33,154 bases of DNA from Candidatus Igneacidithiobacillus taupoensis (lineage in GTDB: Bacteria; Pseudomonadota; Gammaproteobacteria; Acidithiobacillales; Acidithiobacillaceae): contig JAEPKX010000021.1 of NCBI GenBank assembly GCA_021375695.1, forward strand, positions 1 to 33,154, written 5' to 3'. Shown here piece by piece: positions 768 to 29,529 of the stretch (positions within the stretch are counted from its first letter, which is position 1; every line of letters starts with the position of its first letter). The notes beneath the pieces were generated by a model. That model was not told the DNA's origin. It saw nothing but the letters and a program-made list of their open reading frames with translations, and did no database searches. Both the position numbers and the translations under genes were made by a program.

Positions 768-1718
768 TTATAGAATTGCACCATCCTTACGGTCCTTGGC
801 ACTGATGAACTGACGTTTCAGGACATGCTCTCTTTTCAGGCCCAGCCAGAGGGCGATGGGACTGGCAACAAAAATGGAGGAGTAGGTACCTACCACCACC
901 CCAATCACCAGTGCCGTTGCAAAACCGTGAATCACTGGCCCACCAAACAAAAAGAGCGACATGGCCACCATCAAGGTGATGAAGCTGGTAATGACCGTTC
1001 GCGACAGGGTTTCGTTGATGGCGAGGTTAAAGATTTCGGCAACACTCCCGTTACGTGCTGCCCGCAAATCCTCCCGCATCCGATCGAATACCACGACCGT
1101 GTCATTGAGAGAGAACCCCATCACCACCAGGAGCGCGGCAATGACCGTCATGGAAAACTCTTGTTGAGAGAGGGCAAAATAACCCACCACCAGGATGGGA
1201 TCGTGGAGCATGGCCACCACCCCACCCGTTGCAAAACGCCATTCGAAGCGAAAGCCTACGTAAATCAAAATCCCGATGGTCACCACGATGAGGGCCAGGA
1301 TCCCCTTGTTCCGTAGTTCCTTGCCCACCTCCGGACCGACATACTCCGTGCGGCGCAGTTGTACCCCCGGATAGGCACTGGGATCTTGGGTAAAGACCTG
1401 GAGGATCTGATGGGAAACAGCGCTGCTTTCCCCTGGACGAGTTCGCAGGCGGATCAACAAATCCCGATCCCCGCCAAAGGTCTGTACCACCGCATCAGCA
1501 TATCCGGCTTTGCCCAGGGTCTGCCGAACAGTGGCCAAATCTGGGGTGTGGCGGAAACCTAGCTCCACCAAGGTTCCCCCCGTAAAGTCGATGCTGTAAT
1601 TGAGGCCGCGCACCAGAAAAATCGCAATAGAGGCCAGGATCAACAAGCCAGAAATGCCAATGAAGATCCACCGGCGCGACATGAAATCGATATGGGTTTG
1701 GGAATGGAAGATTTGCAT
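768..1718 (-). CDS. secF: Protein translocase subunit SecF
   Basis: SecF works with SecD in the inner membrane to pull exported proteins from the SecYEG channel using the proton-motive force. The ~316-residue product starts MQIFHSQTHIDFM. It has a first membrane helix near residues 15-35, the family motif YSIDFTGGTLVELGF soon after it, a periplasmic domain, then further helices with GFSLNDTVVVFDRMRE, the conserved RND-type core. The ATG at 1718 is preceded by GAGGT at good spacing and lies 7 nt after the secD stop. A longer open frame back to 1781 would overlap secD and adds no conserved sequence. It is the last protein gene of the minus-strand block before tRNA-Ser. Confidence 0.95.
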   Translation of the reverse strand: MQIFHSQTHIDFMSRRWIFIGISGLLILASIAIFLVRGLNYSIDFTGGTLVELGFRHTPDLATVRQTLGKAGYADAVVQTFGGDRDLLIRLRTRPGESSAVSHQILQVFTQDPSAYPGVQLRRTEYVGPEVGKELRNKGILALIVVTIGILIYVGFRFEWRFATGGVVAMLHDPILVVGYFALSQQEFSMTVIAALLVVMGFSLNDTVVVFDRMREDLRAARNGSVAEIFNLAINETLSRTVITSFITLMVAMSLFLFGGPVIHGFATALVIGVVVGTYSSIFVASPIALWLGLKREHVLKRQFISAKDRKDGAIL

Positions 1719-24935: not shown

Positions 24936-25015
24936 CTTGCTCCCTCTTCTGTCTTGTCATGATCCCGCCGCTGAGGCAGGCTTTTCCGAACGTTATCTTA
25001 CGGATTTACCCACCC

Positions 25016-26449
25016 ATGACAAGCCTCGTTCTCTTTCGCCACGATCTGCGCATCGACGACCATCCCGCCCTTGCCCATGGGGCAAAGCAGGGACCGGTGC
25101 TGCCGGTTTTTCTCAGCGATCCGCGGGAGGACCGGGGCGCTGCCTACCAATGGTGGCTGCGACAAAGTCTGCGTAGTCTAACCCAGGGCCTTGCCGACCT
25201 GGGACTACCGCTGATTTGCCGCCGGGGTCACAGTGAAGAGATCCTGCCGCAACTGATCCAGGAGAGTGGTGCGACCCAGGTCTATTGGAACCGTCGCTAT
25301 GCCCAAGCCGAGCGGGAACGTGATCAGCAACTCAAATCCCGCCTGCGGCAACAGGGCATGGTTGCCGAATCTTTTCCCGGGGATCTCTTGACGGAACCCT
25401 GGACACTCCTGCGCGAGAATCAGCCCTTCAAGGTCTTTACCCCTTTTTGGAAAAAATTCCTGCAAAGTATCGAGCCTGCCCAACCGTGCTCACTCCCCCA
25501 GCACTGGCTAGCAGCCCCGCGTCTCCCTGCCAGCGAAAACCCCGATGATTGGCACTGGGAACCCAGGAATCCCGACTGGGCGTCACCTTTGCTCGCATAT
25601 TGGCAACCGGGAGAGCCGGGAGCGCATCAACGCTGGCGAGAGTTTCTGGACCATCGTTTGCGAGATTACGCCAAGGGCCGGGATTTTCCGGCCCTGGAAA
25701 AGGTCTCGCGCCTTTCCCCCCATCTGGCCCACGGCGAAATCAGTCCCCGCCGGCTTTGGCAAATGGCCAGGGAACGAGCCGCTGCCGAACCAGGACTCCG
25801 TCCGGCCGTCGACAAGTTTTTGCAGGAGCTGGGTTGGCGGGAGTTTTCCTGGCATCTCCTCTATCACTTCCCACAATTGCCCACCGAACCCCTGCGCGCC
25901 GAATTCCGCCACTTTCCCTGGCAGGAAGATCGCACCAGCTTGCAGGCCTGGGCGCGGGGGCGAACCGGCTACCCCATGGTGGATGCCGGCATGCGGGAGC
26001 TCTGGCAGACTGGCTATCTCCACAATCGGGTGCGGATGATCGCAGCCAGCTTTCTGGTCAAGGATTTGCTCCTCCCCTGGCAATGGGGTGCGGCCTGGTT
26101 CTGGGACACACTTTTGGACGCTGACCCCGCCAACAACAATGCCTCCTGGCAGTGGGTGGCCGGCTGCGGTACCGACGCCGCGCCCTATTTCCGGATCTTC
26201 AATCCCAGCCTGCAAGCTGCCAAGTTCGATCCCGAAGGCCACTACCAGCGGCGCTGGGTACCCGAATTGGCGGCACTTCCCAACAGCGCGTTGCCGAGCC
26301 CCTGGGCCTATCCGGAAACCCTGGAGTCGTTGGGGATCCAGCTGGGAAGGGATTATCCCCTACCCATCATTGATCATGCCGTTGCCCGGGAACGAGCCCT
26401 CGCCGCTTTCCAGAGGATCTCCGTCCGCACGGGAGATCACAATTTGTAA
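25016..26449 (+). CDS. phrB: Deoxyribodipyrimidine photolyase (class I)
   Basis: This light-driven FAD enzyme splits cyclobutane pyrimidine dimers. The 477-residue protein starts MTSLVLFRHDLRIDDHPAL, the antenna-binding Rossmann domain. The C-terminal FAD domain holds KFLQELGWREFSWHLLYHFP, RTGYPMVDAGMRELWQTGYLHNRVRM and the signature WQWVAGCGTDAAPYFRIFNP. These match CPD photolyases; a (6-4) photolyase or cryptochrome is less likely. The start at 25016 is fixed by the family N-terminus, though no good ribosome site precedes it. It is followed by the tandem small-RNA region, whose first terminator could also end this transcript. Confidence 0.95.
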   Translation: MTSLVLFRHDLRIDDHPALAHGAKQGPVLPVFLSDPREDRGAAYQWWLRQSLRSLTQGLADLGLPLICRRGHSEEILPQLIQESGATQVYWNRRYAQAERERDQQLKSRLRQQGMVAESFPGDLLTEPWTLLRENQPFKVFTPFWKKFLQSIEPAQPCSLPQHWLAAPRLPASENPDDWHWEPRNPDWASPLLAYWQPGEPGAHQRWREFLDHRLRDYAKGRDFPALEKVSRLSPHLAHGEISPRRLWQMARERAAAEPGLRPAVDKFLQELGWREFSWHLLYHFPQLPTEPLRAEFRHFPWQEDRTSLQAWARGRTGYPMVDAGMRELWQTGYLHNRVRMIAASFLVKDLLLPWQWGAAWFWDTLLDADPANNNASWQWVAGCGTDAAPYFRIFNPSLQAAKFDPEGHYQRRWVPELAALPNSALPSPWAYPETLESLGIQLGRDYPLPIIDHAVARERALAAFQRISVRTGDHNL

Positions 26450-26511
26450 CATATTTGTTTTGGGAACTTTTGGGCTTTTCCCTTTTCTAACCTTTTGCAA
26501 GCAGCTGTGAA

Positions 26512-26580
26512 GTTGCGAGCGCATGTTTCTTCCTCCTTTGGTGGTTTTGGGCGAATCTTCGGGTTCGCCCTCTTTTTTTT
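26512..26580 (+). ncRNA. Candidate small RNA, sibling 1
   Basis: The element starts with GTTGCGAGCGCATGTTTCTT, continues with CCTCCTTTGGTGGTTTT, and ends in a strong terminator (26549-26580). The first ~40 nt are repeated 140 nt downstream with only two compensating 1-nt indels, while the terminator stems differ in sequence but not in design. That is the pattern of sibling sRNAs. The CU-rich segment with CCTCC is complementary to Shine-Dalgarno sequences. No convincing promoter is seen just upstream (a poor -10 TTCTAA at 26485), so read-through from phrB or processing is possible. Confidence 0.5.
26549..26580 (+). terminator. Rho-independent terminator of sibling 1
   Basis: GGGCGAATC pairs with GGTTCGCCC (9 bp, one G-U) around a UUCG tetraloop closed by C-G (26549-26570), followed by TCTTTTTTTT (26571-26580). 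It is one of the strongest terminators in the window and would also stop phrB transcripts. Confidence 0.92.
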
Positions 26581-26592
26581 CCGACCGGTCGG
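26581..26592. promoter_or_regulatory. Perfect 12-bp palindrome upstream of the sibling 2 promoter
   Basis: CCGACCGGTCGG is a perfect palindrome lying between the T-run of the first terminator and the -35 box at 26600. Its position just upstream of a promoter would suit a dimeric activator or repressor, but no such site is known to me. It could also be chance. Confidence 0.3.
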
Positions 26593-26599
26593 AATGTTC

Positions 26600-26628
26600 T
26601 TGTCATCTTTCTGAGCATACGCTAATAT
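26600..26628 (+). promoter_or_regulatory. Sigma70-type promoter for sibling 2
   Basis: TTGTCA (26600-26605) and TAATAT (26623-26628) are separated by exactly 17 nt. The expected start is near 26635-26637, about 16 nt before the conserved small-RNA block. The boxes match the consensus at 4 to 5 and 4 of 6 positions. Confidence 0.6.
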
Positions 26629-26635
26629 ACCTACT

Positions 26636-26714
26636 CGCAGTCAGAGTTCTGGTTGCGAGCGCATGTTTCTTTCCTCCTTTGTGGTTTTCGGGGCTTTCGC
26701 AGCCCCGTTTTTTT
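26636..26714 (+). ncRNA. Candidate small RNA, sibling 2
   Basis: The start is inferred from the promoter at 26600-26628 and the end from the terminator at 26689-26714, giving ~79 nt. The conserved block starts at 26652: GTTGCGAGCGCATGTTTCTT, then TCCTCCTTTGTGGTTTT. CGCA and TGTG could pair around the CU-rich segment, leaving CCTCC in a loop; this pairing is less good in sibling 1. The block also contains an ATG that opens a frame into the next gene, but the strict DNA conservation with indels and the terminators favour RNA over peptide function. Confidence 0.55.
26689..26714 (+). terminator. Rho-independent terminator of sibling 2
   Basis: CGGGGCT and AGCCCCG form a 7-bp stem around TTCGC (26689-26707), followed by seven T (26708-26714). 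It lies 9 nt before the ATG of the alpha/beta hydrolase gene, so that gene needs read-through or a promoter of its own. Confidence 0.9.
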
Positions 26715-26722
26715 GGTTCACG

Positions 26723-29529
<2,807 letters not shown>

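Follow-up and report, generated by a model that had tools for sequence, protein, structure and literature searches.

Small RNAs (sRNAs) that are driven by stress sigma factors and expose a CCUCC motif in a loop include SorY of Rhodobacter, which depends on the alternative sigma factor RpoH and not on RpoE, and CcsR. The sRNAs of the enteric sigma-E response, MicA and RybB, are transcribed from promoters with a −35 element GGAACTTTT and a −10 element GTCAAA (PMC1804206). A further group comprises the CU-rich “toxic sRNAs” of Rfam family RF02278, represented by bdhR1/ncS03/05/27/62 of Burkholderia cenocepacia and by Bordetella S17; for S17 and bdhR1, an action on ribosome sites has been shown or predicted (PMC11722255, PMC5688073). 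Tandem sibling sRNAs with anti-Shine-Dalgarno motifs are exemplified by NmsRA and NmsRB of Neisseria, also designated RcoF2/1 and NgncR_162/163 (PMC5362039), whose meningococcal targets are genes of the TCA cycle.

The RNA side of the sigma-E response outside the enterics is largely open, and the locus described here carries a near-perfect RpoE promoter and is conserved across the order Acidithiobacillales. It lies in a 33,154-nucleotide stretch of DNA from Candidatus Igneacidithiobacillus taupoensis, the whole of which was analyzed and is referred to as the window. It probably encodes a pair of trans-acting sRNAs of ~80 nt, likely to be Hfq-dependent, that would mask ribosome sites, with copy 1 under the control of RpoE and copy 2 under that of sigma-70.

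Architecture and conservation of the tandem locus

In the 1.73-Mb genome to which the window belongs, the 20-mer GTTGCGAGCGCATGTTTCTT occurs exactly at positions 26512–26531 and 26652–26671 and nowhere else, even when up to three mismatches are tolerated. The original prediction had described two ~40-nt blocks that share this 20-mer and differ by two compensating 1-nt indels, all of which is borne out by direct inspection (TTCTT-CCTCCTTTGGTGG vs TTCTTTCCTCCTTTG-TGG). Copy 1 is predicted to be an RNA of ~82 nt (26497–26578, plus strand) that starts 7 nt past its −10 element and consists of a 5′ hairpin (26497–26520; GC..GCAGCU/AGUUGC..GC), a single-stranded CU-rich body GCAUGUUUCUUCCUCCUUUGGUGGUUUU with the anti-Shine-Dalgarno sequence CCUCCUU (26521–26548), which is near invariant across the order, and a Rho-independent terminator with its T tract (26549–26578; stem-loop 26549–26570). 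Copy 2, predicted at ~80 nt (26635–26714, plus strand), has a 5′ hairpin CUCGCAGUCA/UGGUUGCGAG (26634–26659), a CU-rich anti-Shine-Dalgarno body CGCAUGUUUCUUUCCUCCUUUGUGGUUUU (26660–26688), and a Rho-independent terminator (26689–26714; stem-loop 26689–26707) ending in T7. The terminators, with a 9-bp stem and UUCG loop in copy 1 and a 7-bp stem and 5-nt loop in copy 2, are those originally proposed, while both 5′ hairpins, the promoter of copy 1, and a palindrome between the copies were absent from that proposal. The two RNAs are predicted to fold alike, into a 5′ hairpin, an open CU-rich body, and a terminator. A covariance model scored copy 1, which is itself part of the model, at 95.2 bits and copy 2, which is not, at 55.3 bits.

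Among 57 related genomes searched at the DNA level, the locus is present in 24 of the 28 others that belong to the window’s family, where the intergenic region is 76–85% identical over up to ~240 nt; one extra family genome retains the promoter end only, at a contig edge. Both sister-family genomes that were read carry the locus with two siblings, and one further member of the class gave a weak match. The alignment resolves into three conserved blocks, which correspond to the promoter and RNA of copy 1, the palindrome, and the promoter and RNA of copy 2. The frozen body spans ~28 nearly invariant nucleotides, and GCATGTTTCTT is invariant in every aligned copy. The signatures that distinguish copy 1 (TTCTTCCTCCTTTGGTGG, with an extra T in one genome) from copy 2 (TTCTTTCCTCCTTTGTGG) are each retained in nearly all species, indicating that the copies are paralogues that predate the family. 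Judged by the 24-genome alignment and these retained signatures, the two-copy arrangement is far beyond chance. In the sister family the two copies are nearly identical within each genome, terminator included, suggesting that they were duplicated later or homogenized by gene conversion. At locus L027 (genome G014) copy 2 is missing or degenerate, and at L025 it has diverged; copy 1 is intact at both.

As judged from the alignment, the hairpins stay paired where bases have changed, and the CU-rich body scarcely varies. For the copy 2 5′ hairpin, 89% of cells are paired in register, compared with 26–48% when the strands are slid, and two-sided changes occur at 5 of the 10 pairs; they involve seven cells, a value that none of 500 shuffles reached (1.9 ± 1.3). 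The terminator of copy 1 shows two-sided changes at three of nine pairs, with 92% of cells paired. All cells of the copy 1 5′ hairpin are paired (100%, in 17 distinct sequences), with one-sided changes only, which taken alone is weaker evidence. Alignment and pairing thus back the initial description, in which sibling sRNAs stand in tandem, their CU-rich anti-Shine-Dalgarno body is conserved, and their terminators have diverged in sequence while keeping their structure.

Conservation of a reading frame across homologous loci, which would have pointed away from an RNA, was also checked. The conserved ATG could begin a small peptide (MFLPPLVV.../MFLSSFVV...), making the locus a pair of microproteins, and both the invariance of this ATG and the restoration of the frame by the compensating indels fit such a function. 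However, the ATG has no upstream Shine-Dalgarno sequence, the nucleotides are almost totally conserved with no synonymous drift, and the hairpins carry two-sided pair changes. Conservation is at the level of RNA rather than codons, because GCATGTTTCTT is invariant, hairpin pairing is maintained, and the reading frames run into terminators of variable length; a coding function is hardly credible.

Promoters and genomic neighborhood

The promoter of copy 1 is of the sigma-E (RpoE, ECF) type and is read directly in the sequence (26463–26490, plus strand), as GGAACTT at 26463–26469 and TCTAA at 26486–26490, separated by 16 nt. The pattern GGAACTT-N16-TCYAA precedes copy 1 at a fixed distance in all 25 family genomes; GGAACTT and TC.AA show zero entropy, and most columns of the spacer between them show 1.0–1.9 bits. 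The −35 element agrees with that of rybB and micA. All four sister-family copies are preceded by a looser GAAC-N18-TCNNA, with GAACTT retained in two. When 30 genomes were searched with the strict sigma-E consensus, eight contained a match, in each case at the sRNA locus alone. A reversed control pattern also matched, once in each of three genomes, so that the count by itself is of modest value and the weight rests on position and invariance. RpoE scores above its curated cut-off in all 12 genomes checked, and Hfq was found in 11 of these, the sole miss being a genome that is 69% complete. By its promoter, copy 1 therefore appears to belong to the sigma-E regulon.

Another ECF sigma factor might read this promoter in place of RpoE, in which case the signal would be something other than envelope stress. 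Some genomes do carry further ECF sigma factors, and rpoE itself is not preceded by a sigma-E-like site; as the exact-consensus search also returned no second sigma-E promoter, the consensus lacks confirmation at an established RpoE target of these organisms. The site nevertheless matches the sigma-E consensus in its classical form, no ECF protein other than RpoE exceeds the RpoE cut-off in the 12 genomes, and the single other ECF match in the window genome is weak. Recognition by a different ECF factor is accordingly considered improbable. The gene 3′ of rpoE occupies the place expected for an anti-sigma factor, and a gene for a DegP/Q-like protease comes after it (by eye), but Pfam returned no RseA call.

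Copy 2 is preceded by a sigma-70 promoter (26600–26628, plus strand), TTGTCA-N17-TAATAT, with the 17-nt spacing given in the original prediction. The family consensus, TTGC..TGCTAATAT, includes an extended −10 element, the TG of which is present in all but the window genome. TTG and GCTAATAT are invariant in 24 family genomes, in the pattern TTG(C/T)...GCTAATAT. Between the T tract of copy 1 and the −35 element of copy 2 lies a perfect 16-bp palindrome, TTCCGACCGGTCGGAA (26579–26594; read as TTCCGACCGGTCGGAATGT at 26579–26597), which nearly every family genome read retains here with 0–2 mismatches. It lies just upstream of the copy 2 promoter and is a possible repressor operator. Near copies of the palindrome stand elsewhere in some genomes, before a gene for an RND-type outer-membrane factor (L249) and before an OvoA-like gene (L246, L247), both identified by eye, which makes a repressor conceivable.

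Upstream of the pair, the window carries a cryptochrome/photolyase-family gene identified by Pfam (24959–26449, plus strand); a photolyase scan of genome contigs did not turn up any close relative of the window. Elsewhere in the family, in other genera, and in the sister family, this place is taken by a divergent dsbD or cutA gene (assigned by eye in some cases). Downstream, an alpha/beta hydrolase gene (26723–27487, plus strand, from its likely start) follows the copy 2 terminator directly in all family genomes read. Its start is so tight behind the terminator (26708–26725) that its mRNA would have to come from transcription past the terminator or from a promoter within copy 2. On this basis, copy 2 (or even the two copies together) might be a cis-acting 5′ leader or attenuator of the hydrolase gene with a terminator that is conditionally read through, a function that would also suit the little room left for a promoter and the persistence of the hydrolase synteny in the sister family. 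Yet copy 1, with a promoter and terminator of its own, stands ahead of copy 2; related RNAs elsewhere precede other genes (fxsA, rplM); and at L027 the degenerate member is copy 2, the one next to the hydrolase gene. Moreover, conserved pairing of the CU-rich body with the Shine-Dalgarno sequence of the hydrolase gene could not be demonstrated, in a test whose summed values exceed 1 and are not probabilities. A leader function is regarded as quite unlikely.

Proposed mode of action and candidate targets

The preferred reading, a trans-acting sRNA pair, draws on conservation at the RNA level, pairing maintained through base changes, the invariant promoter, the presence of RpoE and Hfq, and the anti-Shine-Dalgarno core CCUCCUU. 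From these computed features we infer transcription from the predicted start sites, binding of Hfq, and action by base pairing. Read as its reverse complement, the body gives AAAGGAGGAAAGAAACATG, i.e., a Shine-Dalgarno sequence, a spacer, and AUG, and the exposed GCAUGUUUCUU(U)CCUCCUUUG segment would accordingly be able to pair with the Shine-Dalgarno and start-codon region of an mRNA, blocking translation or triggering decay. Transcription of copy 1 by RpoE would make it the repressing RNA arm of that factor’s response, a role held in enterics by MicA and RybB. Copy 2, with a nearly identical seed, a sigma-70 promoter, and a likely operator, might exert basal or differently timed repression. 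Because one seed is placed on two promoters, this natural pair makes both the redundancy of sibling sRNAs and their promoter wiring testable.

Target prediction, which had been recommended with the original prediction, yielded a few candidates; no conserved target emerged from the antisense pattern, duplex energies, or orthologue checks. Searches of 30 and 20 genomes for 19-nt antisense Shine-Dalgarno–AUG sites returned few non-self matches, which varied from one species to another. They included secreted cytochromes (P460-type in three species, and SoxA), an OmpA-family lipoprotein, a porin-like protein, and sspB, among others; the complementarity at sspB is retained in only three genomes. 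Proteins with signal peptides look frequent among the antisense matches. One cytochrome P460-type gene (L225 ~1480–1500, genome G007) has in its 5′ UTR the sequence TGGTTGCGAGCGCATG, which is identical to 16 nt of the sRNA and lies directly before the gene’s AAAGGAGGAA Shine-Dalgarno sequence, with a near copy in two sister species.

The strongest single candidate target, as judged by complementarity, is a 70-aa membrane ORF of the window genome (L230 ~1490–1520; G000:C7:2166–2190) that directly follows a predicted outer-membrane-type gene and contains AACCACAAAGGAGGAAA across its Shine-Dalgarno sequence, with 17 nt perfectly complementary to copy 2. The predicted duplex with copy 2 has an energy of −37.9 kcal/mol, compared with −7.7 to −27.2 kcal/mol for 21 start regions of the window, although energy alone does not discriminate, since the duplexes of ordinary genes reach −27 kcal/mol. 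Paralogues of the neighboring gene in related genomes showed no such complementarity.

CCUCCUU is itself the core of the anti-Shine-Dalgarno sequence, and the RNAs might act globally, competing with 16S rRNA for Shine-Dalgarno sequences and throttling initiation under envelope stress in the manner of “toxic sRNAs.” Such an action would accord with the failure of the searches to yield a specific conserved target and with the growth inhibition caused by overproduction of RF02278 relatives (PMC11722255, PMC5688073). On the other hand, ~28 nt are frozen rather than 7, including the GCAUGUUUCUU segment 5′ of the anti-Shine-Dalgarno core, which implies that the RNAs pair specifically over a longer stretch or bind a protein, and overexpression of S17 left the exponential growth of E. 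coli unimpaired (PMC11722255). Global competition is considered unlikely.

Relationship to described sRNA families

At its own cut-offs, Rfam called only a tRNA in the window, a tRNA-Ser (CGA) at 631–719 on the minus strand. The original view of the family as unrecognized holds to the extent that no Rfam family reaches its cut-off; it needs amending in that distant RF02278-like relatives exist across Gammaproteobacteria. These came from a covariance-model search of the kind originally suggested, which recovered genomes of the order together with distant gammaproteobacterial matches, the scores of the latter being weak. A first model (R1), in which the 5′ helix was one column off, gave matches at E ≤ 1e-3 in 28 of 274 genomes of the class, three of them from the order. 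With the corrected model (R2), the distant RNAs scored 27–40 bits, with E-values of 1e-3 to 1e-6 in 125 kb under a rough calibration. Nearly all distant matches hold CTCCTCCATCCTCCTTTGGTGGTTT or something close to it, and a GC-rich terminator followed by a T tract closes them; a sigma-70-like promoter is common, as is a position directly upstream of rplM. Gammaproteobacterial RNAs with CTCCTCCATCCTCCTTTGGTGG, many of them likewise upstream of rplM, reach 26–48.5 bits against RF02278, for which the cut-off is 50, and 28–40 bits against the covariance model of the present pair. An sRNA composed of CTCCTCCATCCTCCTTTGGTGGTTT and a terminator was seen in L176–L197 and L030 (e.g., L191 ~1503–1600, minus strand), just under that cut-off and with no Rfam call. 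In the sister family, the rplM-side copy is a third paralogue. The locus thereby connects the “toxic sRNA” family, hitherto classed as betaproteobacterial, with gammaproteobacterial RNAs that lack an Rfam call.

Two genomes of another family (f122) carry a related RNA with TTTTCCTCCTTTGTGGGTTGGG and a terminator, and GGAACT-N17-TCTAA, in which T or C follows GGAACT, stands farther upstream. These RNAs (L205, core ~2001, minus strand; L206, core ~1101) lie between divergent cutA/dsbD and fxsA-groES-groEL. A joint pattern of sigma-E promoter and core, searched in 369 genomes of the class, returned only loci of the order Acidithiobacillales and one chance match in a coding region; the f122 RNAs escape this pattern, their promoter being more distant. 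The shared cutA/dsbD neighborhood speaks for an old origin of the sigma-E variant; alternatively, a short CU-rich motif and its terminator evolved on two occasions. It can tentatively be proposed, as a possibility that falls short of being the expected outcome, that an ancient sigma-E-controlled anti-Shine-Dalgarno sRNA, unrelated in sequence to MicA and RybB, serves as the RNA arm of the envelope stress response across a large non-enteric part of Gammaproteobacteria, beside cutA/dsbD, and that it shares its origin with the rplM-linked CU-rich RNAs, either descending from them or emerging in parallel, and was duplicated in the order, where the second copy passed to a housekeeping promoter.

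Among described systems, MicA and RybB resemble the pair in length (~70–80 nt), in the −35 element and the TC-type −10 element, and in having RpoE and Hfq encoded in the same genome (PMC1804206). They differ in that there is no sequence relation, neither Rfam model matching the window, in that the seed here is an anti-Shine-Dalgarno CU stretch, and in that copy 1 has a sigma-70 sibling. SorY shares stress-sigma control and the CCUCC loop but is alphaproteobacterial, and its model (RF02651) gives copy 1 30.8 bits against a cut-off of 111. As for NmsR, a kinship that the original prediction had raised and itself doubted did not stand: RF02877 has no match in the window even when E-values up to 10 are allowed, and NmsR is transcribed from sigma-70-like promoters with a link to RelA (PMC5362039) whereas the copy 1 promoter is sigma-E-type, so that the resemblance, on the sequence comparison, is one of layout only. 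RF02278 offers the short double hairpin, the CU-rich anti-Shine-Dalgarno stretch, the Rho-independent terminator, and often several paralogues per genome, as with the window pair, but the 5′ half of the body is unlike that of the window copies, and neither a sigma-E promoter nor a tandem layout with split promoters is reported for it (PMC11722255, PMC5688073); its model scores copy 1 at 20.5 bits against the cut-off of 50 and does not match copy 2. By sequence and model comparison, then, the pair stands closest to the “toxic sRNAs” with their CU-rich stretch (RF02278, Bordetella S17) and to the rplM-linked gammaproteobacterial RNAs, all of them distant. The pair combines wiring like that of MicA and RybB with a likely pairing mode like that of RF02278 and S17, is by test a member of none of these families, and looks like a stress-response regulatory RNA family that is not yet filed.
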